A DNA stretch of 64,000 nt from positions 62,001-126,000 of the forward strand of contig VCMS01000231.1 in the NCBI GenBank assembly GCA_022539475.1, read 5' to 3'. Positions 1 to 42,436 of the stretch are shown piece after piece. This DNA comes from Gracilaria domingensis (Eukaryota; Rhodophyta; Florideophyceae; Gracilariales; Gracilariaceae). The position numbers and the translations under genes are program-made. The notes under the pieces were generated by a model. The model was not told where the DNA came from and ran no database searches. It was given only the letters and a program-made list of their open reading frames with translations. Positions within the stretch are counted from its first letter, which is position 1. Every line of letters begins with the position of its first letter.

Positions 1-1813
1 TATCAGTGTCTTTCACCTCTCGTACAGGCTAATAATGTATGAAGCAACTAGTCTATAATCAATTCGTCTTTATCGAAACCATGTTCTCATTAAATTTCAA
101 TAGACCTGCGCACTTTGTAAAGAGCGTAAGAGTAAGAGCTGTTTTCCTACAGTCATTGTGAGCTAGCACAACAGATCCCACGTTCTAGACAATAAAATGT
201 ATACGCATCTCTACAACCATCCGAAGCCCCCTTTTCTCACTCCTTTGGTACGAATTCGAAAACGAACTGCTCTGCGAATCTGCAGTCGCTCGTTTCGCAT
301 AACCACGCAAGTACGGGAAAATCCCCGAGCTAACCTATCCGACTGCGTTGAGTTCTACAGCTGGATGCTTTCTACAACATGCAACGTACAGTCACGTTTC
401 AACAACTGACCTCAGTTAACGGTTACGACTCCATGCTGAACGAGCCTCACATTCGTGGTGCAAACTCTCTATCACTCCGCACTGCAGAATGAGGTCTCAA
501 TGAGCTCCTATGAAATACTACATGACACAGACCACACAGTCAACGAAATTATTCTGGTCAGCACCCACCTTTACTCACGCACTATTCGATACTCTCACCA
601 GAGACTTTCAAATTATATGTATAGGTAAGATCTCTACTTACTCCAGGAATCCTCTCAGCATGCACCTTTTCGGCACGTCTTCAAACTGGTGTTATTTGCT
701 TTCATTGTTAATCTGGTAGCCCATAGGCGCGCTTTACAGGGTATCATCAGACCCGATCTTGGCCAAGCCTTCTTTTCAAGCGCTTCTCTCGCCATGCTCG
801 CTAGGTTCACACATTCTCTTTATAGCATGTCTGGTAGACCATGTTACACATTATTCTCTCGAACCAGTCGCCTTTTTCCCCTACATGGCTCGTCAAGATA
901 CGGTACTCTGATGCTCTCAGGACCGATGATTCCTTCGCACGATGACCAGCACCTCTGCCATAATTGAGGAATAAATACTTGGGTACGCGGTCTCTGGCCT
1001 TTAGTCGCTTCTCAACTCTCCCATCCTTCGTCGCTATCACTCCTGTCCATCTCCCTCCCATCTTATTGATTCTGTCCAGAACAACGCCTCTAACCATAGC
1101 TTTTTGTTGGATTTCTATTGCGGGCTGTTTCACTATCCGTCGTGAAGCGCACACTCTATCTTCTACTTCATCTGACTTAACGCGCGCCGGACACACTTTT
1201 ACAACATTGTACTGCTCTCCGGACCGCAGTAGCGAACTCGATGGGAAAGGATCTGTCTGTAATCCCGTATGTGTCCTACCATCCTTTCATGAGAAAGGCT
1301 CTACCATTTTTCCATGATGTATGTGCTTTGTCCATCAGAATGTTTTTGAACAGAGTGGTCCCAGTATTCTTCGCCCACACGCTTTCTGAGTCGCTAGAAC
1401 CATCAGCCTTTCGTATATACAGAGGCATCCCCCCTTTTCTTCCAAAATTCGTTGCACTTCTTGTGTGTGCGGGTATCGTCAAGCACGAACCACGGGTCAA
1501 CCTCAATAGAAACTTGTGTGCAGTCGGAGAGCATCCTAGACCCCAGACTCGGCATCTATTGGAGAAATAATTTAGACACTAAGTGCGATAGTTATTAGTA
1601 GTAAATAGATAAAGAACAAACATTGAACTCTTTCTTTATGAATTTCCTTTGTGGAAACATATGAACATATATATAGCACTTGTGACATAGGTTTTTACGC
1701 AAAACAACAATCAATATCTTCAACAACAACAAAACATGGTGAAGACATCTCTGGATATCTACTCGTCAACTACAATATCATAAAATCATAAATTCATGGC
1801 TCGTTCAGTTCCC
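1..1813. other. No gene recognised; two weak minus-strand ORFs
   Basis: I recognise no gene in this stretch. On the minus strand, ORFs at 807-1196 (129 aa) and 1276-1506 (76 aa) could be remnants of one degraded coding sequence, since they follow each other in the same direction. Neither matches a family I know, and plus-strand ORFs overlap both. The last 250 bases (about 1570-1813) are AT-rich, with a run of TATATATA near 1670, and would serve as the 3' flank of the minus-strand oxygenase ORF that ends at 1814. Confidence 0.3.
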
Positions 1814-4288
1814 CTATCCATTCTCTGTCTCTTCCTCCATCCCCTGGGCTTCATAGTTCTCGTCTTCTTCGTCGTTCTCCCCTTCCTCGACCATCAACTC
1901 ATCCTCTTCGTCCTCGTCCTCTCCATCCTCCACCAATTCTATGTCCACCGCAGGACCACCTGTGTTGTCCTTTATTCCCATGAGATCGTCTTCTTCCACA
2001 AAAGTCTGTCGAAAATGGTGACTCAGATGAACTTCATCCGGCAAACTGTACTTCTCTGGTACCATATACATATGGTAGCGAAACAGTGGGTTTTCCGGAA
2101 ATCTTCCATCTTTGGTGCCCGCGCCGGCATGAAATACATCCCCTCTCCCAATAAACACAGACATAGATGGGACAAAGAACTTTCTCACCACCATTCCTCG
2201 TGCCAACCCTTCAAATGCTTTTGCTGTTACAGCAAAGTGACTGTGGGATCCTTCACATATCCAAAGTGGGAACGACACAGTTCCGGAGACCATCACAAAG
2301 TACCCCGGGTTCTTCCCCTCCAGCTTGTCTTCGTTTGTCAAGGTCTCGAAGTCGGTATGTAGTTGCTGTCGCTGGCAAGCCACTCCGGTACATAAGATCC
2401 TCCCTCCGGTCTTCGGTAAATACATTCTCTCATTCGGTTGCTTGTTGTCTTGTAGCCCCAACGCCGCACATATCTGACCAAGCCGAGCATCTAACAACGC
2501 CCTCTTCTTCACAAACAAATACGTCTCCGGCTTATTCTCCAGCTCGTCCACTATACCTCTTCTCGTCGTCATATACCTCCCATTGTCCGCGTTCATTATA
2601 GAAATCCATGTATTTCGATTCTCTGGTACCCTGAGGTCTGTGGTTTCTTCGAAACTTTTTTTGAAGAAGTCCAATAACTCGACGCTTACATCCCCATTGA
2701 TGAGCTTGCTGAGACTTTCAGCCATCTTCAAAACGTCGTTGTCACAAGCAAAGCCTTCCAAAATACAGAAACCTCTCTCCCGAAGCTCAGCCTTCTTGTT
2801 CACAAAATACATGTACGCGACGGAATCGTTCTTCACTGTCTCCGCCCATAGGGTCCCATCATCAACCTCCCCTTCTCCTACCGCCTCGTTGAGAAGCTTC
2901 TGACCCTGATACGCAGCATGCCAAAACACAGCATGATGTACTTCTTTAAAGTCCTTCGGCTCGAGCAAATGGCCTCGGTGCTCCTTCCGGAGATGTATCG
3001 CATCCATCCACGGATGTAATGACTTAATCCCGTCCCCTCCAGCAGGCCACTTGGTAGGAACCGCTTTCAACAATTTCAACCACGAATCCCCCCCGTCGTA
3101 AGGTCCTTCGTCTGCTTTCTTCAGCCTCGGGGGTAGAATTTCGGGGAGTGTGTCGTCAAAAGGATCCGTGTCTTCTCCTCGCGTCTCAACATTGGGCGCT
3201 GAATCAGAGTCCGTGTCGCTACTGAAGGAGATTTGATGAGCTTTGAGGAAGCTTCTGACCCCTTTCCCTCCGAGCTTACGCAGATGATTGATAACTAATG
3301 TTTCATCTTGGGGCACTTCGCTTACTTTCGCCTTCTTCTCAGCCCTGGGGTTGTTATCGCTCGTCATCTCCCTTCGTCGACGACTTCCTCCGGTGCTCCT
3401 TCTCAACTCCGCACCACTTGGCTCCTCTAAAACCACGTCGCTTACCACTTCCTGAACGTCTTCCCCGGCATTCTTCGCCTTAACAAGTTTAGAACGCGAC
3501 GCCCGAGTATCCGGTTTAGTGACTTGGGTCCTAGGCGTGGTCGCTTTTCCCCCTCCCGCCGTAGCATACGGCCCGACAGTCGAATTGAAATCCACCCCGG
3601 CAAACTTCTTCAGCTTTTCACGAGCATAAGCCACGCTTCTCGATATCGTTCCGCCCCAAAACTTCTTTGTCGCTGCAGTTTCCAGGCGTGCGGCCTGTGT
3701 GGCAAGATACTCACGAAGGCTGAGTTTCTCAAACCTAGTGACTTCAATTTGCATCTCGTACACTTCCTTCAGAGACAGTCTCTTTCTTTTCGATACTTCA
3801 ACGGCCAGCTCATTTAGGGATCGGCAGCATATAAAGAAATACTTTCGTATATCTTCAAAGCGGCCCTTCAGTTTGGACTCTCGTCTTCTCGCAAAATATG
3901 CTGCCAGGGCGTCCAGGGTGAAATCGGTTGTGTCCTCATCCATAGAAAAGAACTCATCACTGGAGATACATGTAATACCAATTTCATTATACTCCCGACA
4001 CACACTTTCCAAATGCTTCAGCAATCGAGGACTCTTGGCCGCCTTCAAACCCATCTCCGCAAACCTCGATAGACGTCTGATATGGTACTGACCTATGATT
4101 CCGCATACACTTAAGGCACCCGCTACAGCGGTCCTTGTCATGTTGTTCAACACTTTCTTCTCCTCTTCAACCATCGCGGTTATAAAGAATACAATGGAAT
4201 GAACCTTGTCAGCGAAGTTCATAAGTCGGGCCTGCTTCAGTCCATCGTTCAAAGCATTACCCAGGCTCAGAAGCTCCCTCGTTTTCAC
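1814..4288 (-). CDS. Unknown protein with C-terminal 2-oxoglutarate/Fe(II) oxygenase-like domain
   Basis: An 824-codon open frame. The first 240 residues are helical and charged with no family I recognise, residues about 245-350 are a low-complexity basic/acidic linker, and the C-terminal half looks like a double-stranded beta-helix oxygenase. Numbered from base 4288, the visible iron-binding triad is His644-x-Asp646 (in LHTDFET) with distal His720 (in FHAGAG), and Arg737 (in RYHMY) is placed to bind 2-oxoglutarate. The 17-residue gap from distal His to Arg is like that in AlkB; phytanoyl-CoA hydroxylases usually have about 11. The tail is very acidic. The frame has no ATG at its 5' end (first ATG at 4222) and is in phase with the ParB-like ORF upstream (4310-5686), separated by one TGA, so the two were probably one protein. 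The substrate is unknown: nucleic acid demethylation is an inference from the neighbours; protein or small-molecule hydroxylation is possible. Confidence 0.55.
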   Translation of the reverse strand: MKTRELLSLGNALNDGLKQARLMNFADKVHSIVFFITAMVEEEKKVLNNMTRTAVAGALSVCGIIGQYHIRRLSRFAEMGLKAAKSPRLLKHLESVCREYNEIGITCISSDEFFSMDEDTTDFTLDALAAYFARRRESKLKGRFEDIRKYFFICCRSLNELAVEVSKRKRLSLKEVYEMQIEVTRFEKLSLREYLATQAARLETAATKKFWGGTISRSVAYAREKLKKFAGVDFNSTVGPYATAGGGKATTPRTQVTKPDTRASRSKLVKAKNAGEDVQEVVSDVVLEEPSGAELRRSTGGSRRRREMTSDNNPRAEKKAKVSEVPQDETLVINHLRKLGGKGVRSFLKAHQISFSSDTDSDSAPNVETRGEDTDPFDDTLPEILPPRLKKADEGPYDGGDSWLKLLKAVPTKWPAGGDGIKSLHPWMDAIHLRKEHRGHLLEPKDFKEVHHAVFWHAAYQGQKLLNEAVGEGEVDDGTLWAETVKNDSVAYMYFVNKKAELRERGFCILEGFACDNDVLKMAESLSKLINGDVSVELLDFFKKSFEETTDLRVPENRNTWISIMNADNGRYMTTRRGIVDELENKPETYLFVKKRALLDARLGQICAALGLQDNKQPNERMYLPKTGGRILCTGVACQRQQLHTDFETLTNEDKLEGKNPGYFVMVSGTVSFPLWICEGSHSHFAVTAKAFEGLARGMVVRKFFVPSMSVFIGRGDVFHAGAGTKDGRFPENPLFRYHMYMVPEKYSLPDEVHLSHHFRQTFVEEDDLMGIKDNTGGPAVDIELVEDGEDEDEEDELMVEEGENDEEDENYEAQGMEEETENG

Positions 4289-4309
4289 CTTTTGTCCATC
4301 CTTTCTCCT

Positions 4310-5686
4310 TCATAAGGAAACGGTAAGTCCTTTACACAGTTTCTTTATCTTTGCATCCTCCGCACATAGTTCCTTGAGTGCCACAAGACGATGAGCCCCA
4401 TCTATGAGGATGCACGTAACTTTCACGCGATTGCCCTCCACCATCTCCTTCTCGGACTTACCCGTGATCAAAATAGCAACACTCATCGTTCTAAGGGCCT
4501 GAAGAAACCCTTTCCTTCGAATCTCCGCCTTCAGAGCTTCAACATGCTCCCGAACTGTCCCTCTCACAGTTGCGTCCGGGATTTCGATTAGGTCGATGTC
4601 GACCTTCACGGACTCGTACTCATAATGGTCCAGGGTGAACTTGAGCGACGCCAGACTCATATCCACGTCATCCGAAGGTAATTCATCACCTTCGTCCAAT
4701 AGTTCATTGACGTTTACAGCCAAGCTCTCCTTCACAAGGTCATCATCATCCACTTCATCCACATCCACAACTTCCATCTTAGCTCCACTGTGACTGCCAG
4801 CCATTGCAATCGCTTCAGCAGTGCTATTTCTGGACGATCCAGACTGCACATTCATCGCTGGTTGCTTTCGTAATGCAGAGACCGCACTCTCTAGAGTTGT
4901 GGTCAATTGTGCAGTTCTTACCCTTGTACCATCCTGGTCTTGCTTAGATGGAGGTTTAGGCACAGACCCAGGCGCTGGGGGCGGTACTTCCTTCCTCCCT
5001 TTGTTCTTCTGTTGTTTGCCTGGTGTTTTGGCCTGGGCTACCTGAGGTGGCAACCGTTTCCCACTCGGTGTACGCGGGGGTTTCGGTGTTTCCGCCATAC
5101 ACACTCGTTTCCCTCCTGTCGTGGACGCCGCATTGGTATGCCTTGAATTCTCACTGGGCACCTGCGGCGTGGTGTTCTGAACGGTCTCACCCGAAGCCAT
5201 GAAGTTCAAGTCCCAAGCATAGAAACCCATCTTGTTTAAGTCCGCAACGGTTTTCGGAATGGAGTCTTCATCCGTACACTTAAAGAGATACGAGTACGGT
5301 GTATGGAGCTCCTTAGATACATCAGCTCGCCATATACCGACTATATCCTCTCCCGGTTTCCCTTCCAGTCTGTGACCATGCATTTCTCTTCGATAGTCTT
5401 TGCCGTCGCCGGCAGACTCGATGGCCACCACATCAGCCGTGCCAATTGGGACCTTGTACCATCCATTCCCCGCGATAAGAAGCGTCACTTTGTCCCCCGG
5501 TGCTGGTTTTGCTTTCCCCGGGTTAGAGCTCATACTCGTCTCCGGATTCTGTGCGTCCTCACTACTCTTCTGCCCTCCTTCTTTTGTCTTCTTCGCACTT
5601 CGAAGATGCGGCGCCATGGGGTTGCGAACTTTTCGCGGCTTTCGGGAGCGCCTCATCTGCCGGTTCCCCAATCCTCTTGGCTCCAT
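4310..5686 (-). CDS. ParB/sulfiredoxin-fold domain protein
   Basis: 458 aa from the ATG at 5686. The N-terminus is basic (many Arg/Lys/Pro) and could be a nuclear targeting segment. Residues about 60-160 form a small domain I do not recognise, 160-330 is a Pro/Lys/Thr-rich linker, and the C-terminus carries a ParB-like fold. There, an Ile-Glu-Ile strand near residue 375 is followed by a helix and the diagnostic strand IDGAHRLVALKEL (Asp429, Gly430, His432, Arg433). In ParB-domain proteins this loop binds or cleaves nucleotide; phage and bacterial DNA methylases often carry such a domain. The domain ends abruptly at a TGA, and the next frame continues in phase with a sequence that fits the rest of a ParB domain (VKTRELLSLGNALN). 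The stop therefore looks recent, or is read through. It is divergent from the methyltransferase-SET gene. Confidence 0.6.
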   Translation of the reverse strand: MEPRGLGNRQMRRSRKPRKVRNPMAPHLRSAKKTKEGGQKSSEDAQNPETSMSSNPGKAKPAPGDKVTLLIAGNGWYKVPIGTADVVAIESAGDGKDYRREMHGHRLEGKPGEDIVGIWRADVSKELHTPYSYLFKCTDEDSIPKTVADLNKMGFYAWDLNFMASGETVQNTTPQVPSENSRHTNAASTTGGKRVCMAETPKPPRTPSGKRLPPQVAQAKTPGKQQKNKGRKEVPPPAPGSVPKPPSKQDQDGTRVRTAQLTTTLESAVSALRKQPAMNVQSGSSRNSTAEAIAMAGSHSGAKMEVVDVDEVDDDDLVKESLAVNVNELLDEGDELPSDDVDMSLASLKFTLDHYEYESVKVDIDLIEIPDATVRGTVREHVEALKAEIRRKGFLQALRTMSVAILITGKSEKEMVEGNRVKVTCILIDGAHRLVALKELCAEDAKIKKLCKGLTVSL

Positions 5687-5995
5687 TATATAGCGTGTTT
5701 GAATTTAGCTTCGTCAAACACCTATAAAGGTTGAATGCAGAACAAAGCGGTAATCATATAATGCTCTGATCACGTCAGCAAACGGCGCACCCGCTCGGTT
5801 TGAAGGCGGTACACGCTTCGCTGTCGGTTGAAGTGTCGCACCCGTTCGTATCGCAGATTTTTAGTGCAGCTCGCGAAAATGCTCGCGTGAACATTCGCGT
5901 CACTTTGAAAGAGTGGTGCAGGCGGTTAGAGAGGGTGCAGAAGGCTTAGATGCATACCAGACAGCATGATCAACCCTCACGGTTTCCGCCCTGGT
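5687..5995. promoter_or_regulatory. Shared 5' region of the divergent accessory genes, left part
   Basis: This region lies just upstream of the ParB-like ORF. It contains several CGCACCCG/GTGCAGGCGG-type GC-rich words and a TTTATAG box on the minus strand at about 5730. The corresponding right part of the intergenic space is 7231-7482. I see no recognisable operator. That it is a promoter is inferred only from the divergent gene starts. Confidence 0.3.
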
Positions 5996-6005
5996 ACCCT
6001 CCTGT

Positions 6006-6147
6006 GGTGGCCGGATGCGACCTCTTCAGACAGCGGTCTGGACCGCGATCAGCCGAGTTCATAGCCGAGATCATGGCCATGATCTCGGCTATGAACTCCG
6101 CTGACCGCGGTCCAGACCGCGGTCTGAACACGTCGCATCCGGCCACC
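6006..6147. repeat. 142-base near-perfect palindrome
   Basis: The arms GGTGGCCGGATGCGAC (6006-6021) and GTCGCATCCGGCCACC (6132-6147) pair around a centre at 6076/6077 in GATCATGGCCATGATC. The inner arm also pairs, with a few mismatches. There is essentially no spacer, so it could form a cruciform. Its right arm recurs as the right end of the element near 7180-7221. Confidence 0.85.
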
Positions 6148-7168
6148 CCGCCACCGTACGAGGGTGGGAAAGCAGGTTGTAGGGTACAACGTAGAGCTGA
6201 GTAGACCTACGCAGAGCACATTTGTCGTTTCACATCGCAGTTTATACGTATCTACACAGAGGCAAGAAACAATTTCGCGTGGATTTAATTTATTCGATGT
6301 TGAGTTTGAATGCCGAAGAGCAGAGCCATTCGAGAATGAGGATAGTGATGGAAGCACCAATCGCAATTGTACGGGTATTATGATCATGGCTGTTTGTCGT
6401 GGAAGCAGTCTCAGAAGGACCCTCATCACGTTCAGTGGCGGGCGGCGACTGTACAGATCGTGTCATTGACGTGTTCTGCTCTTGGTGTGGGTGCTAAGAA
6501 GCGTGTTGGAGCTGCATCATCAACACGTTGTGAGCCAGAAAGTGCAATCCACGCAATATGCGCTAGCTCGTATCAAACTGAGCGCCTCAGACAGACATCC
6601 AGGTCGGCGGTGGGTGTGTAGCGCAGTCATTAGGCATATCGAGATCAGCCGCTGCGGCCACGGCGGCTGCAGTCGTCAAGGCAGCGCTATTATGGGTGTT
6701 TGCGCCTTGCGACCGTCGTTTTCATTACGTCAAAGGCGCCGCGGACGCCTGTCGAAAAGGAATTTGAGCGCTGTAAAACGTCGTGCTCGTTAATACATTG
6801 GTATTACCAGTACGGGGAGTGGGAATACCTAAGCTGCATGTTGTTCCGGACGCTCTTGTTCTTGAGTGCGACGGATGCGGTGGTCAGATGTTGCGATGAC
6901 GATGGCGTCTGAACGCATTGCGCCTGCGCAATGCAACCGCTCTTTGGGTGCGCGTCGGCGTTGGAGCGCAAGTGGCGAGAGTAGAGGCGGAGAGCGTACA
7001 GGAGATTTGTTTGCAGCCTCATGATGGCGGCTATGATGATGATGCACATAATGATGTGGGAGCCGGTCGGTGGCAAAATACGGCGATTCTGAGTTGTATA
7101 GGAGCAAATCTTATCTGCCCCATGCGCGCGACAACCCCCTCTACACGTGGGCTGATACCTGCTTCTAA

Positions 7169-7206
7169 CGTGTTGAGACCGCGCTCTGGACCGCGGTCTG
7201 AACACG
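7169..7206. repeat. 38-base palindrome at the right end of the element
   Basis: CGTGTTGAGACCGCG pairs with CGCGGTCTGAACACG across CTCTGGAC. It duplicates part of the left palindrome and marks the right terminus of the short transposon. Confidence 0.75.
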
Positions 7207-7482
7207 TCGCATCCGGTCACCAGGGGGGTCACTACTAGGTGATTCTACACAAGTCTGCGTACTACACCCGCTCTCTCAACCCTGTTCACACCCTCTTCTG
7301 TACGACTAACACCCGCTCAAATACTAATTTAGAATAACGGTTCATCACCGCCGTTTACTACTCTTTCGAGAACTCCTTCAGCGAGTTTCATCGCCACCGT
7401 CTATTCCGCTTTCGTGAGTTCTTGCGAGAGTTACATGGCTCCCGTCTAAAACAGACCCTCCTGTGGTCTTAACAGCCGAGCG

Positions 7483-8172
7483 ATGTCGACTACCGCATCT
7501 TCCGTGGCATCTACGGAGTCTAGCTCCGGTGAGAAGGATATTATGACGACGCAGTTCCTTCGTTTGTTCAGCATACTTCTCGAGCTGAGAGACTCGTTTG
7601 CGGCGATTCGAGGCGGCATTGGTTTCCCTTGTCAGGTTGGATACACGGCTCTGGTTGAGTACGCCGTCGCAAACCGTGCCAGTCTGGCTTGTCCACGGGA
7701 ATTTCTCACGGATGTTACGAAGAGTACGTACGCAAACTATACGCCGCAGGAGCTGGTAAAGATAAGTACCGATGTTAGGTTCATAAGTCAGGTCTATAAG
7801 TATGTCCGTATCATTGACGTGGATGACTGAAGTCAGGATCATCGGGTGAGGGATCTTTTCGAATGGAGTTCGGATAAGAATGTAAATGGCGCGAATTCTT
7901 TTATGGAGCGTGTGTTCTGGAATGACTTATTCAAAGAGCATGGTCCCGAATCCAAGCAGACGAAGAAAACTACCTTCCGGATTGAGCCTGCTACTCGTTT
8001 TCAGCAGTTGCTCTATCTATCCCTAGTGAAGCGAATCACTATGGAGAGGCGACTCCCAGTCGCAAAGAAGGCAAGGAGTGCAACTCGTTCTCGGAGACAT
8101 GTGCCGTTTGTGGATGGTTTTGTCATGTCAAACCAAGCGCACATAGGCGGATGGGCTATGCTCTGCAAATGA
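7483..8172 (+). CDS. Unrecognised ORF upstream of the methyltransferase, split by one in-frame TGA
   Basis: The frame opens with an ATG at 7483 and runs 115 codons to a TGA at 7828-7830, then continues in the same phase to 8172 (about 229 codons in all, excluding the stop). The Ser/Thr-rich N-terminus is followed by a helical segment. The second half is basic (KKARSATRSRRHVPF). I recognise no domain. A further coding-looking stretch in another phase (8151-8300, about 50 codons) sits between it and the methyltransferase start. Either this is the decayed 5' part of a longer methyltransferase-SET protein, or it is a separate gene. An unrecognised intron could also explain the breaks. Confidence 0.35.
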
Positions 8173-8327
8173 TATGTCTAGGATGGGATTCGTTTGCTTC
8201 CAGTCTTGGATTTCGTGACGCAGAACAAATACTGTTACCGTTTCTTGCCATGGATAAAACGACGCTTTCTTTCAGCGCAATTGAGTCCCGTTCTTCCGGA
8301 TAAAGCCCAGCATCGGTGTTCAAAACA

Positions 8328-10613
8328 ATGGGGATCGAAGTGAAGCCAACCACAGAGGTCAACGCTACTGTGCCTTGGGTTCACATCTTTTCGGATGATA
8401 TCGATACCAAACTAAGAGATTTGTCAAAAGAGTTCCTGTCCGATTTGAACAAGGTTGTTTTAAACGGATTTCTGTACAACATTTCCGCTACTACCAAGTG
8501 GGAACTGCTGGAAGGCTTTCGAAGGAAACTTCGGACACCGTTTCCATCTCGTTTTGATGCTTTCTCCGATGCGTATTTGGCTACTCTTCGTACCGCTATT
8601 GTCCAGCTGAACCTGAGACCTTCCCAGCAGCCATCCCGGGCCACTCTGTCAGGACGTCAGGAAGGAAGCAACACGGTCACGGTGAAGATTGAGGATACGG
8701 TTATGGCACAGAGAACCATTTCCTCCAGGCCAATGGCTATGGCGGTGGGTAAAACATCCGGTAAAACATCCGGTGCAGACCCGGGTCCGGTGAATGTCAC
8801 TATCATAGACGACACGGATGATGATGACGGTGGAGCGCACCCCCTTTCTAATGTTCCTGATGGTGTTCTTCCACCTCACGACTTTGGCGATGTAAGGACG
8901 ACGAAGGCTCTCGGTATGGTCGAAAAGAACATGGAGCAACAGTTCTCTATGCATTGCGTTGGTTATGAAGAGTTAGTGCAGGCTCATGGTACACTGTTCC
9001 CTTCCGATAATTCCCTAGAGGGCAATGTTCAACTCGTACTCACGGACCCGCCTTATTGTATACGTGACAGTGAGCATGATGAGCTTTTCGACGAAGATAT
9101 GGTTAATACTGCAGAAATGATGGCCTCAATGCCTCGCCCTGGCGGTCATTTTCTAATGTTCTGTACCATCGAACAGTTCGCAGACTGGGAGGAGATTCTA
9201 CGTGAGCACAAATCGGAGAATGCATTGGGGAGGCAAAGTGCTTCGTTCTTAGTCGACCCCACACCGATGCAATTCATTCGCTCTCGTACGCACACTTTGA
9301 AGAACCCCGGAAGGAACACAACACGGTTGTTGTCTGCAACCGAGTATGCCGTGCACGGAGTCCGGAATGGAAACGCGTACGAGGAGCAGAAGGTGATGGT
9401 GAACTACAAAACTTTCAACTACGTTCCCACGCAGTACCCCGGGCATTACTCCATTATCGATCAGGTTCCGCATCTGGAGGCTGGTGGAGGACTCCGTTGG
9501 AGGGTAAAGAAGCGTTCCAAAATACCCTCGGTTCAGGTTCGCCCGGAACAGAAACTGAGGGCACAGCTAAACGAACTCATCGCCAGGTTCTCAAATCCCG
9601 GGGACGTTGTGGTTGATCCCTATAGTGAAACATTTTCCGGTGCCTTGGCGTGCATGGACATGGAAGAGCCCCGACGCTTCATTGGATGTGAGAGAGATGA
9701 GCAGTGCTTCGCTCATGCTGAACACAATGCTGTAGTGATGTATACGAGGAAGGTTTGGGGTAACGAGTTCAACGCAAGAATAACTGTCAGTAATGAGGTC
9801 GTTCAAGCCTCGTATTTAGTACAGACAAAGTTCCCGGAAGGGAAGCAAAGAACCTCGCGTATATGGACCGCACCGAAAGGATTCCCGCCATACCAATGTT
9901 TCCTGTTTCATATCAATTCCTACATCCCAACGTTTTGCAGAGAACCGAGTCTCATCGCGCAGCACAAGGAGAAACCGGTGCACGAGTGGCCTCTGAATCT
10001 CCAAGGCACATTGGAGACGATGGATAAACAGGGTTTGCTCGCCGCTGAAGCAGCAGGTTTATGGTTGTACAGGAAGAAATCAAATATCAAACACCCCATA
10101 AGTGGAGATGGAGTGTTCAGTAGTAGATCGTTCTCGGAAGGAGAGGTTGTTGGGTACTTCTATGGGACATTGGTATATCATGACATAAGCCGACGCAATG
10201 CAAAACAGATGAAATACGGAAGCGGAGTGCTCGGTGCCACTGTTTCTCGTTTCAGGAGGTATTGCATGGAAGTGAAGCTGAAAGGGCAGATTTACAGCAC
10301 GCTTCCTCACTATGATTTCGAAATCAATACTGTGATGGCCTGGATAGTACCCGCTCCTTTCTGTATAGTGGGCTACATCAATGATGCTTCGTACCGGGAT
10401 GGAGACGAAGAGAAGGATTTGGCCGAGATGGACCCTTACCAAGGCCGCTTACCAAACGTTATTATTCGACAGCCCTCCGAGCATCAAGCTACCACATTGG
10501 GTACACTCGCAAGCTATGGACTACTTTTGGTGACGGCTACAAGGGATATTCATGAACACGACGAACAGTACGTAGACTATGGACCCAGCTATCTATGGGA
10601 GAGGTATTTGTAA
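8328..10613 (+). CDS. DNA N6-adenine/N4-cytosine methyltransferase fused to a SET domain
   Basis: 761 aa from the ATG at 8328 (an in-frame GTG lies at 8316). Residues 1-110 are helical and unrecognised, and 110-190 are a low-complexity linker. The methyltransferase domain follows: catalytic motif IV Asp240-Pro-Pro-Tyr243 in VLTDPPYC, and further on VVVDPYSETFSGAL (Asp430) then RRFIGCERDEQC, which is the DPFxGxGTT...RFIGIE segment of beta-class amino-methyltransferases. The order IV before I fits that class, but the glycine motif is degenerate (SETFSG), so AdoMet binding may be weakened. The C-terminal third (about 585-761) reads as a SET domain: GDGVFSSRSFSEGEVVGYFYG near 593, INDASY near 684, PNVIIRQ, then a closing VDYG with Tyr751. 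One protein could thus modify DNA amino groups and methylate a protein, perhaps histone lysine. It is divergent from the ParB/oxygenase arm, which suggests a linked writer and eraser. The domain calls are read directly from motifs; activity and target are inferred. Confidence 0.75.
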   Translation: MGIEVKPTTEVNATVPWVHIFSDDIDTKLRDLSKEFLSDLNKVVLNGFLYNISATTKWELLEGFRRKLRTPFPSRFDAFSDAYLATLRTAIVQLNLRPSQQPSRATLSGRQEGSNTVTVKIEDTVMAQRTISSRPMAMAVGKTSGKTSGADPGPVNVTIIDDTDDDDGGAHPLSNVPDGVLPPHDFGDVRTTKALGMVEKNMEQQFSMHCVGYEELVQAHGTLFPSDNSLEGNVQLVLTDPPYCIRDSEHDELFDEDMVNTAEMMASMPRPGGHFLMFCTIEQFADWEEILREHKSENALGRQSASFLVDPTPMQFIRSRTHTLKNPGRNTTRLLSATEYAVHGVRNGNAYEEQKVMVNYKTFNYVPTQYPGHYSIIDQVPHLEAGGGLRWRVKKRSKIPSVQVRPEQKLRAQLNELIARFSNPGDVVVDPYSETFSGALACMDMEEPRRFIGCERDEQCFAHAEHNAVVMYTRKVWGNEFNARITVSNEVVQASYLVQTKFPEGKQRTSRIWTAPKGFPPYQCFLFHINSYIPTFCREPSLIAQHKEKPVHEWPLNLQGTLETMDKQGLLAAEAAGLWLYRKKSNIKHPISGDGVFSSRSFSEGEVVGYFYGTLVYHDISRRNAKQMKYGSGVLGATVSRFRRYCMEVKLKGQIYSTLPHYDFEINTVMAWIVPAPFCIVGYINDASYRDGDEEKDLAEMDPYQGRLPNVIIRQPSEHQATTLGTLASYGLLLVTATRDIHEHDEQYVDYGPSYLWERYL

Positions 10614-11162
10614 CTCTCCCATGCTTTATAGTTTGACGTAGTACAAACTGTTGTAGTGTATTTCAAAACTTCTGCGTCATTTATTGAATGCATTCATCAT
10701 TCCAGTAAACCTATTATTACAGGAATCGACAACGTGGCACAAGGACGCATTGTCGTGTTAAGCAAAGAGCTACTAAGAATACTCCACAGCGATGAGAACT
10801 ACCACCTCAAAAGTAACACCTCAGAACTAACACCTCACCCCCAGGAGGTTGGACCAAGGAACAGAGGACCTTCATCATGAGGGGACCCGACAGACGGACC
10901 TGGCACATAGAACATAACCAATGAAAAATACGGCCATGGGAAATGTGTAAAATTGGTATGAATGTCTGCCACAGGAATGGACCAGCTCACTCAGGGCTCA
11001 AGAACCACTGAAGGTCTCCATCACCTGCTGCAAAGGTTTCAAAAGCTTCCCCCCTTCCGCTTTTTCACGCCACAATACGAGCAGAACTCCAGAAGCTTCC
11101 GTTTCCCCACTCCATAATCCCATCATAATCAGTTCTTTTTCACACGAGTCTGAAGCGCAATC
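10614..11162. other. Intergenic; nothing recognised
   Basis: This is the 3' flank of the methyltransferase-SET gene. It contains a short direct repeat of AACACCTCA near 10815 and 10827, but no ORF, RNA gene or transposon end that I can support. Confidence 0.4.
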
Positions 11163-11459
11163 ATGGCTCCACACAAGTCCAGCAACGCGGACGACCGGGT
11201 GACGAAGGGATACCAATCAATCCCGCGATATGGTATTGGCGTCCCTAAGCGCAAGAAACCTCCGCCTGCCGCGACCCGAAGAAGTACTCGACGACGAGCT
11301 CCCCGCGTCGGGCTTACTGGAAAGAAGTCTGGTTTGAAGTCAGCAATCCGGGCTTCGAAGGCAAAACCGAAACCGAAGCTGGGTGTTAGTACGACCACAA
11401 CGGAAGTGACAGAGAACGAAGTAGTGTTACCCGTCTGTGTTCTGCAAAGTGGAATATAG
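11163..11459 (+). CDS. Small basic protein, unrecognised
   Basis: 98 aa from an ATG at 11163. It is rich in Lys, Arg, Pro and Ala, with patches such as KKPPPAATRRSTRRRAPR and KAKPKPK, resembling a histone-tail or nucleolar-type basic protein but without a fold I can name. It could be a nucleic-acid-binding protein, or a chance ORF. It sits downstream of and in line with the methyltransferase-SET gene. Confidence 0.35.
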   Translation: MAPHKSSNADDRVTKGYQSIPRYGIGVPKRKKPPPAATRRSTRRRAPRVGLTGKKSGLKSAIRASKAKPKPKLGVSTTTTEVTENEVVLPVCVLQSGI

Positions 11460-11899
11460 TCTGTTCGCTTTGGAAACTAAGCTAGTGTTGGGGCTATTTG
11501 GGGCGCGCGAGGGGGTGGCAGAGGCTGGCACTCAAAAAATTAAGAAATTTTGTAATATTAAATTCCATTTCGCGCAGTTTAGTTCTTGGGTCCCCTAGTT
11601 TTTGTAGAGGTTCTACTTCGCCGCACCACCCCATTCACTCTTTTCCGCGACCCTCTCTCAAAACTGCACTCGTGCTAGTTTGCGTTTCCATTTTCTCCCA
11701 TGTTGCAATGCCAATCGCAACTCATCCCACCTCAATCATCCCATCACTTCTTCCCAGTCCACACCACCCCCGCTATTTACCCATTTCTCGCCCATCACGC
11801 GTTCGCATCCTTTCTCTCCGTCTCCGCAAACGTCATTTTGTAGAAGTCAGGTGGACAACTCTCCCCCTTCTCGTATACCCGCCTCGCCCCAAAATGGCT

Positions 11900-12830
11900 T
11901 CAAATCCCTCCCATCCTTTTCTCCTTCTGTCCTCTCAGAATCCCCTTCGCAGTCCGCGCTACCTCCGCCGCACTCCTAAACCCAGTCACCACCGGAGCTC
12001 CGACTCCCTCCCGCGTCACCTCCTCCAACATCTTCTTCATCTCCTTACGCCTCTTCTTCAGACGGCTCTTCCCATCCCCAACCCCACCACCCTTTGTCTT
12101 CGGTGTCACAGGGGACCCCCTCTGCACCGCCACCCTTCTCACACTTCCCTTCTCCGTCTTTCCCTCCACACCTCCTTTCACCGTCTCCTCTTCCACCAAT
12201 CTTTGCCTCTTGCCAAGCTCCTTCACCTCCTTCTCCAGCACGTCCAACCTCTCGTTCAGAACTCTATTCTCCTCCCGCAACTCTCCAACCTCCCTTCCCG
12301 CACACTCCACTATCCCATACACATGATTTCTCATCTCCACTCCCAATACCGACAACGAATTCCGCAGGATCGAAATCGCCTCAACCGAAACACCACTACC
12401 ACCCCCCCCTCAGCACCACAACGCCCATTTCCGTTACAATCTCCACAATTCCATCGTCCAGTTGCTCATTCATTACCAACCCCAACATCCCCACCCTCGC
12501 CTTCATCTCCCCCACAAACCGCATCTCCCTGTCACCCTCTCCGCCCGCACTCCCTATCTGGTCTCCAACCTCTAACTGACTCAGATGCACCGCACCCCTT
12601 CTCTCCATTACGACCCCCTCCACCTCCAATTCTACACCCTTCTCCACCTCATTACCATCCCCTCTCCTCGCCTCACACTCCTTTCCTTCATCGGCCACTT
12701 CCTTCTTCTGCGACATCCGACCAGCCGCCGTAATCACGTCCTCTTGCCACTTTGATGACGGCGTCGGCGGTACCTTTTTCCCCTCCAACAGTGCCAACAG
12801 CTCCTCATCCTTCACGTATCTTTTCGACAT
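11900..12830 (-). CDS. Coiled-coil protein of unknown function, interrupted at a G8 run
   Basis: The natural start is the ATG at 12830 (MSKRYVKDEELLALLEG). The first frame runs to 12396, and a second frame from about 12400 to 11900 carries a clear leucine-heptad coiled coil (REVGELREENRVLNERLDVL) and a Lys-rich C-terminal part. The two frames differ by one base and meet at a run of eight G (minus strand; C8 on plus, 12412-12419), so the gene is frameshifted in this copy, has a sequencing slip in the homopolymer, or has a small intron. The charged, Glu/Val-rich composition suggests a structural or regulatory nuclear protein, but I cannot name a family. A TTTTGGCGGGAAA box lies about 140 bases upstream. 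The long Pro/Ser-rich plus-strand frame here is its antisense shadow. Confidence 0.5.
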
Positions 12831-12970
12831 CTTCAGAAGAAGAAGTAGTAGTTGGATCGAAGTTTCCGCTGCGATACAGTGCAATCGAGCTAAACTGTGC
12901 TGTCCACCCCCACTGTCCAACCACACGGGCTATATCCAGCACCATGATTGTCCCTGTTTCCCTCATCCCA

Positions 12971-12983
12971 TTTCCCGCCAAAA
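12971..12983 (-). promoter_or_regulatory. E2F-like site upstream of the coiled-coil gene
   Basis: TTTCCCGCCAAAA on plus, TTTTGGCGGGAAA on minus, matches the E2F/DP consensus TTTSGCGS and lies about 140 bases upstream of the minus-strand start at 12830. The same 12 bases occur upstream of the TXNDC9-like gene at 51423. Function is inferred from the consensus only. Confidence 0.45.
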
Positions 12984-13182
12984 CATCTACTGTACACCTC
13001 CGCACCTTCCACTATTTAAGCGCCACCTCTCTGTCTCCTCTTTCGCGCTCACATAATCCCCACCCACCTCGCCTCGACCGGCGATATTTTTCTCTTCCAC
13101 CATAACCTCACTCGATGGTTTTAGCAAAACAGGAAGATATTGCCAGTGGAGGCAAGCTAGGGACTAGTGATTGTACTTAGAG

Positions 13183-13430
13183 TAGCTCACCCTCTGTCTC
13201 GACTGGGGGCATCTTCTTCTTCCGTCACATCCTGTGTGGGTTGTGACAAAAAAAAGAATATGTCACCACTCGACACCGGATGAGTAACAATGATAGCATG
13301 TAGAGTATTTCATCCTCCCTCTCAGCGTCCACTGGGGATATATTGATGTTCTCTCACATCCTTTCCCGGTTGTGATACAAGAGAAATACATCTCCAATGG
13401 AGACGGAGAATATAGTCGTGATAACACGTA
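13183..13430. repeat. Diverged tandem duplication, about 120-125 bases per unit
   Basis: Two units share a series of words in the same order: GTAGAGTA or AGAGTAGC, then CATCCTCC/CACCCTCT, CTGGGG, CTTCCGTCACATCCT / CTCTCACATCCT, GGTTGTGA, then AATATGTC/AATACATC and CGACACCGGATGAG / TGGAGACGGAGAA. The unit boundary is about 13302-13306. It lies in the gap between the coiled-coil gene and the epimerase gene and has no coding potential. Confidence 0.5.
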
Positions 13431-13483
13431 AAGGTAACAATGTAGTAAACAATAATTTTATGCTACTATCTCTAACCAACCTT

Positions 13484-14179
13484 TCAAAAACCAGCTATGA
13501 CATGAGCTGGGTTACTCGAGCCAAAGATAGCAGATCCTGCAACTGAAATGTTTGCACCGCCCTTCACTACTCCTTTCACAGTACTCAGTCTAATACCGCC
13601 ATCCACCTGTATCCCTATTCTTGGGTACAACTCCCTTGCATGTCGCACCTTATCAAGAACACCCTCCATAAATGCCTGTCCTCCAAACCCTGGCTCCACC
13701 GTCATCAACAATAACATGTCCACAACTCCTTCCTTCATAAGTGCTTCTACGACCTTTATAGACGTATTCGGGCGCAACGCAACTCCATCCTGCATTCCCT
13801 TTCTTTTAATTCGGTTACATAATTCCTTCAACACCACGTTCTCCTCCTCAGTGGGTACCTCGCACTTTTCTAGTCCCTTAGCCACACTCTCGATATGAAA
13901 TGTGACTCAGTCTGCGCCTGCTTCTGCAAGGTCTTTTATCCAGCGCCCAGGATCTGATACCATCAGATGACAGTCCAAAAACAATTTCGTATGCCTCCGC
14001 AAATCTTTCACAACAGGCGGTCCAACAGTAAAGTTCGCCACAAAATGACCATCCATTACATCTATATGCAGCCACTCCGCTCCAGCCTCTTCCATTGCAC
14101 TCGCTTCATCTGAAAGGGAAGCAAAGTCTGAAGCCAAAATTGATGGCGCTATAATTAAACGAGAATCCATACTGAACAT
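13484..14179 (-). CDS. RPE: Ribulose-phosphate 3-epimerase with an in-frame TGA
   Basis: Interconverts ribulose 5-phosphate and xylulose 5-phosphate. From the ATG at 14179 (or 14170) the frame is 231 codons, the normal length, and the whole family pattern is present: [56 protein letters not shown] and a phosphate-binding [13 protein letters not shown]. All metal and catalytic positions (the Asp in HIDVMD, His in CHLMV, Asp in VDGG) are kept. One TGA (13907-13909) interrupts the frame in GAD-stop-VTFHIES, at a position where the family varies (Gln, Met, Leu, Ile). A CGA-to-TGA change would give it. There is no plastid-like extension, so if functional this is the cytosolic form. It may be a young pseudogene, a sequence error or a recoded stop. 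Confidence 0.85.
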
Positions 14180-14225
14180 CGATAACTTCAGTAACGCCAA
14201 ACCCGTCCTTCCCAGACACACCCCC

Positions 14226-14233
14226 CTTTTATA
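14226..14233 (-). promoter_or_regulatory. TATA box of the epimerase gene
   Basis: TATAAAAG on the minus strand, 46 bases upstream of the ATG at 14179. That leaves room for a short 5' leader of about 15-25 bases, in keeping with a compact genome. Confidence 0.5.
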
Positions 14234-14644
14234 CCTCAATAAAAAAGAAGATTATGGCAATCCGAGTGAAGCTATAGAACCCGTTCACGTCATTTATGAA
14301 GCCAAAATGGCTCCTTTCATCCTGTATTCAAGCTCCCCGTAACTCGTACTTTACAACTACTTTACAACTCAGGTTCGAAATCAGTTTCATTCATTGCACA
14401 CTTTCTACTGTTCCACCTACCTTTCATAAAACATCATCACACTTTGTGGCTTGTCGTCTCATACAAGCCCTATCATTGATTCAGTACAATCAGATATCAT
14501 ACATTTCGCTCACTTTCACAAAGTGAACCATGTTCCCGTTCTGTGCTTCCCAACCGTTTGTACTTAAGTATCACTCTTTATCCCAGCAGTTCTCCGCCCC
14601 ATCTTCCATTTTTATCGTCACACAAAAACAATCGAACACTTGCA

Positions 14645-15547
14645 ATGAACTCCCAGTCCGACATGCCTCCCACTCCGCCTCCCAGTCCCAGATACTCTGA
14701 CGTCCCTCAGGCCTCATCTCCCGCCCGAAGGACTGGGGCCGTTATTGTTGGAAGGGAGCGTATAGGTACCATGCTGGCGAACGAAGGAGATATGGTCATT
14801 TCCGCTCACGAATTCTGCAGCATGGCTGCTACCTCTCATCTTTCTGATGTACCGATACTAGTTTGTGGAAGAACGAACACCCTAGAGACCGTAATTCAGG
14901 CTTGCCCTTATTCGCTCAGAGAGAATCTCGTTTTCTTCCGGAATGTAGACATCATACCATTGGTTTCGAAGCTCGGTGTGGACAAATGTTCAAAAGTTGT
15001 CATATACGTTGGTGTCCCTTCAAGAAACGCAGCTCCGCAGGATGGTGTCACTCCTCAAAGTCCGGATGGTCTCACTGTCGCAACAGGAAAGTGGGCCTCC
15101 AACGTTGCAGAGAGGTTTAGGTCTATGGGTCTCACTTGCGGGGTTGTCGACGAAGACACAATTATCGTAAGCTATTATGAGAAGCTCGTGTGGCTATCAG
15201 CGTTCAACATCGTCGGGGTCTCAAGAGGTTTCATTCCTATGGACGTAGTCGCTACGGAGTGCAGTACGGTTGTGCTCACAATAATGAAAGAGCTGTTGAA
15301 GATAGTTTCGCTTAAGATAGGTACTACTTTCAACCTGGAAGAGACCGTTGGGCGACTTCTTGCATATGGGAAAACTCTCGTTGGCTTCCCTACTTCTTCC
15401 TCCAACTTTCAGTTTAGGAACGCGTACTTCTACGACTTTTCTCGCCAAGAAAGAAACATCGTAGGCGGTGACCCCGCTCCTTTTCATACAAACTACCTCA
15501 AGGTTGTTAAGGAAAAGTTATCCCCCTCCCCATTCCCCCAGCTTTGA
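14645..15547 (+). CDS. Ketopantoate reductase-like protein
   Basis: 300 aa from the ATG at 14645. The N-terminal 40 residues are Pro/Ser-rich. A Rossmann-like half follows, with VIVGRERIG, a degenerate GxGxxG in which the middle glycine is replaced, and no clear NADP-binding basic residue after it. The C-terminal half fits the ketopantoate reductase (ApbA) C-terminal domain well: YYEKLVWLSAFN, then VATECSTVVLTIMKELLKIV, and FPTSSSNFQF in place of the usual SSMxxDL. The family makes pantoate for CoA; with a weak cofactor loop this member may have another role. It is transcribed away from the epimerase gene. About 50 bases after its stop the sequence becomes retrotransposon. Confidence 0.6.
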   Translation: MNSQSDMPPTPPPSPRYSDVPQASSPARRTGAVIVGRERIGTMLANEGDMVISAHEFCSMAATSHLSDVPILVCGRTNTLETVIQACPYSLRENLVFFRNVDIIPLVSKLGVDKCSKVVIYVGVPSRNAAPQDGVTPQSPDGLTVATGKWASNVAERFRSMGLTCGVVDEDTIIVSYYEKLVWLSAFNIVGVSRGFIPMDVVATECSTVVLTIMKELLKIVSLKIGTTFNLEETVGRLLAYGKTLVGFPTSSSNFQFRNAYFYDFSRQERNIVGGDPAPFHTNYLKVVKEKLSPSPFPQL

Positions 15548-15600
15548 GGTTAGAATTAATGACTTTTCGGTGTCGTAAACCTTTTAGAGATAGTAGAAAG

Positions 15601-16550
15601 GGGATCGCCATTTTCGTTCGTTTCGCAGTCGGTCGAAGAAGTTTCCCTCTCCCGAAGGGCGATGTAGATATCGGAACTCCGCTCGCAGGATAGGCCTGTT
15701 GAACAGGAGAATGTCCGCCGGCATCGCCTCCGGGAAGTTTTCCGCCGCTTGGAAGTGCGCGAGGTTCGCGCCATACTTGGTCTCTCCGTAAGTTCGGAAC
15801 CGGGAAAGGTCGAACCCGTATGACTCGGCAATCCTCTTGGGGAACGAGGCTCGGTCCTTCCGAAAGTATGCCAATCGCGCAATAGCCGCGCGCGATTCAT
15901 CTAGCGTTTCGTATCCACGGCCGTGCCGTTTCCGTGACAACACGTGAGGTGCGACCGCCACGCGGTGTCTCCAATCCCAGGAATCCACAATATCTCGGTG
16001 TAGGCCGCCACGCAGCATACCATTCTCGGTGTATGAATCCATCAACGCACTGTTGCGAACCGCTGTCGGGTGAAACCAGGGTGCTCTGGAATAGGCCCAG
16101 CTTCCTCCGGTAGTCGGATCTTGAACAAAGAGCGATTCACGCGCTATCCAGCCAGCTGGAGTCACCAACAAGGACACCGCCTGAGCGGAATTCCACGCCG
16201 CGACGTCGACCGGGTTCGGTGTAGTCGTGTGATGTTGACTCTGAGGCAAAGGAGCGGAGGAAAAACCGCCGAGATATCCTGTCGCAGGATGCGGGACCCG
16301 AAATGTTCGGAGCCCCGGCTTGGGAATGCTGCTCGTCGCCCTGGTGAGGGTTCATCGAATCTTCGATCGCAGAGGAAACTTCAAGTACTGAATCGTCTGA
16401 GTGCAGAGAAGTTGAGTGCGCTTGCGCGTGTGTCTCGTTGTGACGAGGAACCGGAATCGGATATGTCCATGGTCGACCACGCTTATATACCGGCTCGCTG
16501 ATGAGTCTCCGCTTGCAAACCGGATGTTTCCTGTGCTAAGGAGAGGGATA
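15601..16550 (+). mobile_element. Truncated tandem copy of the gypsy element's 3' internal region
   Basis: These 950 bases match 26696-27647, the stretch just before the right LTR of the large element, with about seven differences, and run directly into the left LTR. It is thus the tail of another copy sharing that LTR, cut off where it meets the flank of the ketopantoate-reductase-like gene. It contains the corresponding end of the antisense coding region. A fossil fragment. Confidence 0.85.
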
Positions 16551-17523
16551 TGTAGAGCAAAACGTGCTCGCCCGGTATACGGGGAAGGATTTCATAAACC
16601 CCTGGTAAGCATGATTCCGGGTACTCGGAAGGTATGAGTATTGGCCCACGGAAGGGATACTTTTTGGCAGTATTGAGGTATGGCACCCTGAGAAGTCGGC
16701 CATGACGTGGCGCAGATGAGTATTTGTCGAGTTTACGCGTGTGTAGGAATGGGTGTGTTCACACATGTCTTGTTATGATTGTCGTATATTTTACTGGCCG
16801 CTGCCACGGGTTGTCACGTGCACCACGTGTATGGACCTGCTTAGGTGTGCATTAGATTATTTAATTTAGTTTAACTAATTTATCGGTTACGATATAAGAG
16901 GTGACCTCCCGGTCACCTCCTCCTTCAGTAAAGGGTAACCGAGTTCGGCTCTGAACCAAGTTCGCCTGCGCGAAGTGTACAACTCCCTTAGGAGGGTCAC
17001 CGCGTACGGTACGGATTGGATTCATCCCTCGGGATCACTCAGGCAATACTGACCATTGTGGGCTAGCCTTCGGGCTTATTTATTCCGCGTCTTCGGACTT
17101 TCTTTTTCTTTTCCTGTGCAGTTGTACTGCTTTCACCACAATTGGTAGCGTTTCCGTCTCTGTATAGAGTTGTGCCGCGTGGGCTTAATACAAAACCCCC
17201 CATCTCCCGTCGCCGGGTCTGTTGCCGCTTGTCGCACGCCCAGCCGAGGGTTCCTCCTTTGGTTTTCCCTTCCTTTTCCCCCTTTTGCCTAGGGCTTACA
17301 CCGCTCTACGGTACCTTTTTTCTCAACTATTCTGCCACTTCTCGCCTGATTCCTGGATCAGGCCCGTTCACCCCTCAACCTCCGTAGGTATATCCCGTAC
17401 CACGGGCGGTCTTATACCCGCACTATCCGTGTTCGGAGGGCTCACCACTGAGTTCACCGCGTCTAGAGGGCAAGGACTCGAAGGCCTTGAGAGACGATCT
17501 CATCGCTGGGGTTTTGCTCTACA
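16551..17523 (+). repeat. Left LTR of the gypsy element
   Basis: 973 bases, beginning TGTAG and ending CTACA. It is preceded by a TAAGGAGAGGGA purine tract and followed by AG and then the primer-binding site. Inside are GATATAAGAG (16891-16900), an AGGTGACC/GGTCACCT inverted repeat (16899-16918) and CCGAGTTCGG (16939-16948). Confidence 0.9.
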
Positions 17524-27452: not shown

Positions 27453-27647
27453 CGAATCTTCGATCGCAGAGGAAACTTCAAGTACTGAATCGTCTGAGTG
27501 CAGAGAAGTTGAGTGCGCTTGCGCGTTTGTCTCGTTGTGACGAGGAACCGGAATCGGATATGTCCATGGTCGACCACGCTTATATACCGGCTCGCTGATG
27601 AGTCTCCGCTTGCAAACCGGATGTTTCCTGTGCTAAGGAGAGGGATA

Positions 27648-28619
27648 TGTAGAGCAGAACGTGCTCGCCCGGTATACGGGGAAGGATTTCATAAACCCCT
27701 GGTAAGCATGATTCCGGGTACTCGGAAGGTATGAGTATTGGCCCACGGAAGGGATACTTTTTGGCAGTATTGAGGTATGGCACCCTGAGAAGTCGGCCAT
27801 GACGTGGCGCAGATGAGTATTTGTCGAGTTTACGCGTGTGTAGGAATGGGTGTGTTCACACATGTCTTGTTATGATTGTCGTATATTTTACTGGCCGCTG
27901 CCACGGGTTGTCACGTGCACCACGTGTATGGACCTGCTTAGGTGTGCATTAGATTATTTAATTTAGTTTAACTAATTTATCGGTTACGATATAAGAGGTG
28001 ACCTCCCGGTCACCTCCTCCTTCAGTAAAGGGTAACCGAGTTCGGCTCTGAACCAAGTTCGCCTGCGCGAAGTGTACAACTCCCTTAGGAGGGTCACCGC
28101 GTACGGTACGGATTGGATTCATCCCTCGGGATCACTCAGGCAATACTGATCATTGTGGGCTAGCCTTCGGGCTTATTTATTCCGCGTCTTCGGACTTTCT
28201 TTTTCTTTTCCTGTGCAGTTGTACTGCTTTCACCACAATTGGTAGCGTTTCCGTCTCTGTATAGAGTTGTGCCGCGTGGGCTTAATACACAACCCCCGTC
28301 TCCCGTCGCCGGGTCTGTTGCCGCTTGTCGCACGCCCAGCCGAGGGTTCCTCCTTTGGTTTTCCCTTCCTTTTCCCCCTTTTGCCTAGGGCTTACACCGC
28401 TCTACGGTACCTTTCTTCTCAACTATTCTGCCACTTCTCGCCGGATTCCTGGATCAGGCCCGTTCACCCCTCAACCTCCGTAGGTATATCCCGTACCACG
28501 GGCGGTCTTACACCCGCACTATCCGTGTTCGGAGGGCTCACCACTGAGTTCACCGCGTCTAGAGGGCAAGGACTCGAAGGCCTTGAGAGACGATCTCATC
28601 GCTGGGGTTTTGCTCTACA
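27648..28619 (+). repeat. Right LTR of the gypsy element
   Basis: 972 bases, TGTAG...CTACA, about 99% identical by eye to 16551-17523. It is preceded by the same purine tract and followed immediately by opposite-strand gag sequence. Confidence 0.9.
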
Positions 28620-34997: not shown

Positions 34998-35029
<32 letters not shown>

Positions 35030-35088
35030 TCGTCGCGCGCGCTCCGCCCGCCGGTCTTGTCGACGCGGACGCTCTGGCCCGCGGCGAT
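34549..35088. promoter_or_regulatory. Upstream region of PurH
   Basis: GC-rich intergenic DNA. It holds GCCGCCATTTTGTC at 34744, direct copies of GGCGCCGTCCGGC (about 34789 and 34801), and GGATATTTTGGCGAGCGC at about 34890, the last resembling an E2F-type TTTTGGCG box about 200 bases before the PurH ATG. No other gene seen. Confidence 0.3.

Positions 35089-42404: not shown

Positions 42405-42436
<32 letters not shown>

Follow-up and report, generated by a model that had tools for sequence, protein, structure and literature searches.

A divergent gene pair with a DNA methyltransferase-SET fusion in the red alga Gracilaria domingensis

Two long open frames that point away from each other in a contig of Gracilaria domingensis (VCMS01000231.1, GenBank assembly GCA_022539475.1) raise the question of whether an algal genome holds a compact system that both writes and erases a DNA mark, couples it to a histone mark and is carried by a mobile element. 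The window is the whole stretch of DNA analysed, 64,000 nucleotides long (contig positions 62,001 to 126,000, forward strand), and all coordinates refer to it.

Layout of the divergent pair and its window

The divergent pair with its methylase-SET fusion is genuine and lies at 1814-10613, with two arms placed around a shared region of ~1.8 kb. A sequence-only reading had described divergent arms sharing one intergenic region and had named the motifs DPPYC, GDGVF...YFYG...VDYG, IDGAHRLVALKEL, and HTD...H...R; the frames are present where that reading placed them, and every one of these motifs occurs in the sequence. The frames and domains are the following:

4309-1814, minus strand: open frame of 831 codons, from the open reading frame list
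5704-4310, minus strand: open frame of 464 codons, first ATG at 5686, in the same frame as the 831-codon frame
4312-4310, minus strand: in-frame TGA parting the 464- and 831-codon frames
~4367-4612, minus strand: ParB-like box, weakly assigned by PHROG (IDGAHRLVAL from 4405 downwards)
~1985-2527, minus strand: possible PhyH-like 2OG/Fe(II) oxygenase in the C-terminal part of the 831-codon frame (HTD ... GSH ... GDVFHAG ... FRYH)
7483-8172, plus strand: upstream frames of the right arm, with ATG at 7483, in-frame TGA at 7828-7830 and stop at 8170-8172
8304-10613, plus strand: open frame of 769 codons, the methylase-SET fusion, ATG at 8328
9027-9719, plus strand: beta-class N6/N4 DNA methyltransferase domain, DPPY at 9045 and altered motif I (DPYSETFS) at 9615
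10104-10583, plus strand: divergent SET domain, from the Pfam profile and motifs

The left-arm frames had been read as in phase, and they do lie in one reading frame, but the TGA parts them. This TGA, the broken upstream frames of the right arm, and a repeat-rich insert in the shared region go unmentioned in the sequence-only reading. The upstream frames of the right arm, which gave no convincing family (best E 0.034 in Pfam and 0.24 in PHROG), may represent a separate gene, a first exon, or a decayed N-terminus of this arm. With alterations in key residues and in the reading frames, any activity of the two arms is putative.

The window is eukaryotic in look and includes a ribosomal S21 gene (RPS21) with a GT-AG intron and, from ~15.6 kb on, Gypsy-type retrotransposon frames, all named by direct reading. 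A direct repeat of 1.9 kb (15601-17523 and 26696-28619, 99.2% identical), with retrotransposon-like frames between and around its copies, may reflect a recent insertion or long terminal repeats. The G+C content of 2-kb bins is 0.45-0.56 from 1 to 34 kb and 0.43-0.51 from 48 kb on, and it rises within 34000-48000 to as much as 0.78 at 42-44 kb; this sharp, isochore-like shift marks a G+C-rich block that holds housekeeping genes such as AICARFT/IMPCHase. A gene for ribulose-phosphate 3-epimerase (13484-14251, minus strand) is complete by profile (E 1.1e-62 when read through), but its frame is broken at a variable position by a single TGA (13909-13907), which may indicate a pseudogene, recoding, or a sequence error. 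Beside the right arm, a very basic frame of 98 amino acids (11163-11459, plus strand; KPPPAATRRSTRRRAPRVG...) has no family match and could encode a chromatin-like protein or be part of an element. Both arms also contain hydrophobic-acidic stretches, VTIIDDTDDDD at ~8795-8830 (plus strand) and MEVVDVDEVDDDD at ~4739-4780 (minus strand), which we take to resemble SUMO-interacting motifs.

The methylase-SET fusion of the right arm

The methylase domain is identified by profile, by domain order, and by fold. Residues 242-472 of the 769-codon frame match N6_N4_Mtase (PF01555) in Pfam with an E-value of 9.8e-9 over 219 of the 221 profile positions, at a score of 35.9 bits that is above the cut-off of 26.7, and the methylase part matches a phage methylase family in PHROG with an E-value of 2.6e-18. 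DPPY (residue 248) precedes motif I (residue 438), and this permuted order assigns the domain to the beta class. In a model of the methylase-SET protein, built with an alignment of 19 viral relatives (19 of the 25 listed viral or phage frames, with L001, L002, L003, L005, L029, and L038 omitted as phage records or duplicates), the methylase core folds, with mean pLDDT of up to 89 in ten-residue blocks. Among the best 50 of its 355 fold matches, M1.HpyAVI ranks first (E 2e-10), followed by CcrM, M.BceJIV, and MboIIA, with the bdelloid N4-cytosine methylase (8s9n, 8s9o) further down. The two profile matches and the beta-class fold of the model thus bear out the DPPY-type DNA methyltransferase of the sequence-only reading.

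Motif I of such enzymes is the FxGxG loop that binds SAM. It reads YSETF in the right arm, where the pattern is broken by a Glu in place of the first Gly; this position is Gly in 59 of 61 aligned viral or phage loci, a set that includes a few near-duplicates, and the second Gly is replaced by Phe, a residue also found there in three of the 61. The lost Gly would fit a methylase part that has become a catalytically dead reader of DNA, with only the SET part acting, yet the DPPY motif is intact, the second change has its counterparts among the relatives, and the methylase fold is kept in the model, so that a dead reader appears doubtful, while being compatible with carriage of the pair by a mobile element. 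DPPY favours adenine N6, as is stated for bacterial enzymes in the part of the bdelloid rotifer report available to us (PMC8885841), although sequence alone does not fix the target.

The methylase is fused to a SET domain within the single 769-codon frame, as had been proposed. In the search with the whole frame, residues 601-760 span the entire SET profile (PF00856) at 17.4 bits (E 0.006), and the SET piece alone reaches 20.7 bits (E 5.9e-4), just below the cut-off of 22.4. SET domains are marked by a GxG at the start and a catalytic Tyr in an xxYG motif near the end, and both hallmarks are present as GDGVF at 10104 and VDYG at 10572; the central NHS motif is degenerate and by direct reading is YINDAS. 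Against PDB sequences no match of the SET piece was significant; a regulator unrelated to SET came first (E 0.13), ahead of KMT2A (E 0.6), SETD8 (E 0.8), and PBCV-1 vSET (E 1.6). In the model of the methylase-SET protein the SET half has pLDDT below 50 for most residues, and no SET protein appears among the best 50 of the 355 fold matches.

The left arm and the shared intergenic region

The left arm had been credited with a ParB-like fold and a 2OG oxygenase acting as an eraser. A ParB-like family is the top PHROG match both of the 464-aa frame (E 0.012) and of the read-through piece (E 0.0072), and the IDGAHRLVAL box agrees with it, but Pfam assigns ParB to neither query, and the ParB piece scores best there against a viral G protein to which it is unrelated (E 0.042). 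The PHROG match to ParB barely exceeds this one, which makes the evidence thin, and the part of the claim that stands is a weakly indicated ParB-like box.

The oxygenase candidate, which we take to be PhyH-like, is plausible at the level of motifs. An HxD...H metal triad and a 2OG-binding Arg are present and in order. The loose pattern HxD..H..R arises in 8847 of 20,000 shuffles (44%), HxD..GDxxH..R in 93 and HxD..GSH..GDxxH..R in one, the latter two patterns having been picked after viewing the sequence. The oxygenase piece had no match in Pfam or PHROG, its sole match in the PDB was an unrelated fimbrial chain (E 0.12), and a single-sequence model was uninformative (pLDDT 32). With no profile or confident fold found in these searches and with a loose motif so common by chance, the eraser of the sequence-only reading goes no further than its motifs. 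Codon-usage scoring gave no separation of frames, including for readthrough of the left TGA.

The region between the arms contains short repeats and a larger repeat structure:

5788 and 5839 (plus strand) and 5929 (minus strand), spanning 5788-5937: three copies of CACCC[GT][CT]TC, possible binding sites
7265 and 7310, spanning 7265-7318, plus strand: two further copies, CACCCGCTC
5983-6170: inverted repeat with two 94-nt arms and a gapless junction, 85% complementary
7168-7221: half-repeat (GACCGCGGTCTGAACACGTCGCATCCGG) in which the repeat end recurs

The repeats at 5983-6170 and 7168-7221 probably delimit a nested insertion, and a repeat-rich insert occupies ~5983-7240 of the shared region. 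The pattern CACCCG[CT]TC has four copies flanking this insert and none elsewhere in the 64 kb, and the wider CACCC[GT][CT]TC has five flanking copies and one elsewhere, each pattern having first been chosen by eye. A 9-mer is present three times in the shared region, a count reached in two of 2000 shuffles; in 13 of the 113 other stretches of equal size a 9-mer likewise occurs at least three times, and 11 of these 13 lie at 33.7-46.8 kb, where G+C is mostly high. The CACCC[GT][CT]TC repeats are therefore best described as a lead, that is, candidate binding sites suggested by their sequence. Rfam gave no matches in 1-16000.

Relatives, decay, and the mobile element question

Relatives of the methylase occur in viruses and plasmids, and all matches listed from phages stop short of the SET domain. 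Exact-peptide scans of IMG/VR, which detect close relatives only, recovered none for the methylase-SET frame, the 2OG frame, the ParB piece, or the SET half; a loosened 2OG pattern found none in IMG/VR or GTDB, and exact methylase-SET peptides found none in GTDB. A loosened methylase scan of IMG/VR found at least 58 methylase loci, in none of which was the SET half reached, and the SET piece, compared by tblastn with all 61 loci, had no match at E up to 1. Similarly, the methylase-SET frame matched 56 phage records, all 30 of those listed by the methylase part only, and the methylase piece alone matched 106 plasmid records (15 listed), while tblastn of the left-arm frames against phages gave none at E up to 1. 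In the fetched loci, two of 1714 frames were ParB frames, both the same protein. Control searches found PhyH in one of 14 control genomes and in neither of two records, and ParB_N in 10 of 14 and not in the one record, and gave nothing usable. The IMG/VR contigs L005 and L006 encode an identical protein in which a ParB-like N-terminus, named by reading, precedes a beta-class methylase. The right arm resembles such ParB-methylase fusions and the M1.HpyAVI/CcrM-like phage and viral methylases in domain order, DPPY, and fold, but differs from them in its SET domain and in the loss of the motif I Gly that nearly all of them keep.

Giant viruses carry methylases and SET proteins, and PBCV-1 vSET turns up, below significance, when the SET piece is compared with PDB sequences, so that the pair could be conceived as a piece of an endogenous giant virus or satellite. 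Against this, the IMG/VR scans, mostly by exact peptides and hence sensitive to close relatives only, found no relative of the left arm or the SET half, and the Pfam searches of the flanking stretches found no viral gene, which leaves a viral origin very improbable.

The interruptions of the frames bear on whether the pair is intact. In the main rival to the transposon explanation given below, the pair is what is left, in decay and without function, of such an element or gene pair, and the frames are relics. This agrees with the TGA in the left arm, the right-arm interruptions (the TGA at 7828 and a change of frame near 8170), the Gly to Glu change in motif I, and the repeat-bounded insert within the shared region. 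Frames of 831 and 769 codons remain open, however, which makes a long decay unlikely, and the interruptions could be introns, since RPS21 in the same window, a gene named by reading, has a GT-AG intron. GT-AG combinations able to remove the stops number 18 for the frame change near 8170 and 335 for the left TGA and form a long list for 7828, none of them decisive. Decay of the pair is rather unlikely overall. The presence of TGA in the epimerase gene and in both arms led to a code in which TGA specifies Trp being considered. This code was not adopted: the frames of chorismate synthase, NAXE, and TPMT (the latter two named by reading) end at TGA, and these ends look natural by eye. They contain one, four, and seven TGG codons, respectively, and as the frames were cut at stops, the comparison covers their ends and their TGG codons. 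Recoding of TGA in single genes is possible.

That the pair is perhaps carried by a mobile element had also been suggested. No transposase was found with Pfam in the six frames of 1-1814 and 10614-14902 or in 5705-8331 (plus strand) and 5705-7483 (minus strand); one of these searches recovered the epimerase gene as a positive control and the other ran without one, and the only matches at E up to 0.1 in these stretches were the epimerase frame and, at the same place, the weak second family OMPdecase. No terminal inverted repeats occur between the flanks of the pair, which is single-copy within the window. Because the window begins 1.8 kb to the left of the pair, an element could extend beyond it.

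The suggestion fits published accessory proteins of algal transposons. In the Ectocarpus transposon Sola1-1_Ec32, according to the available part of its description, ParB and an N4/N6 methylase are joined in one protein opposite a transposase (PMC12477816). The Gracilaria pair shares with this and similar algal transposon proteins a prokaryote-type ParB-like domain near an N4/N6 amino-methylase, but here they are encoded on separate, divergent arms, SET is joined to the methylase, and a transposase was not found in the flanks searched. In Phytophthora, HarbingerS and MuDR transposons carry SET genes, and many fungal DNA transposons carry TET/JBP dioxygenases; such SET or dioxygenase cargo has been read as anti-silencing in the portion of the report available to us (PMC12730594). 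The likeness to the Phytophthora elements is the SET domain gene, with no fusion to a DNA methylase described in that portion (PMC12730594); the fungal elements carry a dioxygenase, whereas the left-arm piece here has no Pfam family match.

In addition, a horizontally acquired methylase is known from bdelloid rotifers, where N4CMT combines N6_N4_Mtase with a chromodomain and has shown 4mC activity, and where separate SETDB1 proteins are suggested as readers of its mark, as given in the available part of that report (PMC8885841). Both proteins join a permuted amino-methylase of phage or bacterial type to a eukaryotic chromatin domain, but N4CMT has SPPY and a chromodomain (a reader), while the Gracilaria protein, known from sequence alone, has DPPY and SET (a writer). 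A literature search found no methylase-SET fusion, which does not prove its absence from print, and a search on N6_N4_Mtase with a SET domain led to the bdelloid paper only, seen in part (PMC8885841). The rotifer precedent (PMC8885841, available part), together with the lack of a transposase and of element ends in the stretches searched, would suit chromatin genes of the host of an ordinary kind, now immobile, that stem from a domesticated mobile element or from horizontal acquisition. Given the interrupted frames and the published cases of these domains in transposons, origin from an element is no less likely, and we regard the host-gene explanation as improbable.

The explanation that we tentatively prefer, at somewhat less than even confidence, is that a large DNA transposon of eukaryotes, still present or recently reduced to a remnant, has the pair as accessory genes that act on its own chromatin. 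It is attractive because published transposon cargo fits (ParB-methylase proteins, SET genes, and dioxygenases), and the retrotransposon-like frames in the same window and the 9-mer found three times between the arms were counted in its favour. Against it count the lack of a transposase and of terminal inverted repeats in the stretches searched, the single copy in the window, the replaced motif I Gly, the in-frame stops of both arms, the thin ParB match, and the oxygenase that no profile recognises. Under this transposon explanation, the ParB-like protein would bind repeated sites in the shared intergenic region, CACCC[GT][CT]TC being the candidate, and the methylase-SET fusion would be recruited to the same DNA. 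The methylase part might then methylate adenine N6, as its DPPY type suggests, or at least bind DNA; the SET part might methylate lysine on a nearby histone, and the possible 2OG domain beside ParB might act on a repressive mark by oxidation. Together these activities would let the element escape silencing or tune its own expression. A far more elaborate version, in which the element has a two-layer epigenetic kit with one protein writing DNA methyl (6mA/4mC) and histone lysine marks and a ParB-targeted oxygenase removing marks, all aimed at iterons in the shared promoter, seems improbable as a whole. A closed writer/eraser system may be hypothesised, and the self-contained coupling of DNA and histone marks that the sequence-only reading had proposed stays conjectural, given the lost motif I Gly, the interruption of both arms, and the lack of a left-arm relative or a methylase-SET fusion in the viral and prokaryotic collections searched.

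Should the fusion prove active, a bacterial-type DNA mark and a mark on histones would be tied together by a single polypeptide, a more direct link than the separate proteins proposed for bdelloid rotifers. An active fusion would further widen the reported class of accessory methylases in algal transposons, and self-directed control of chromatin by a transposon would become testable.
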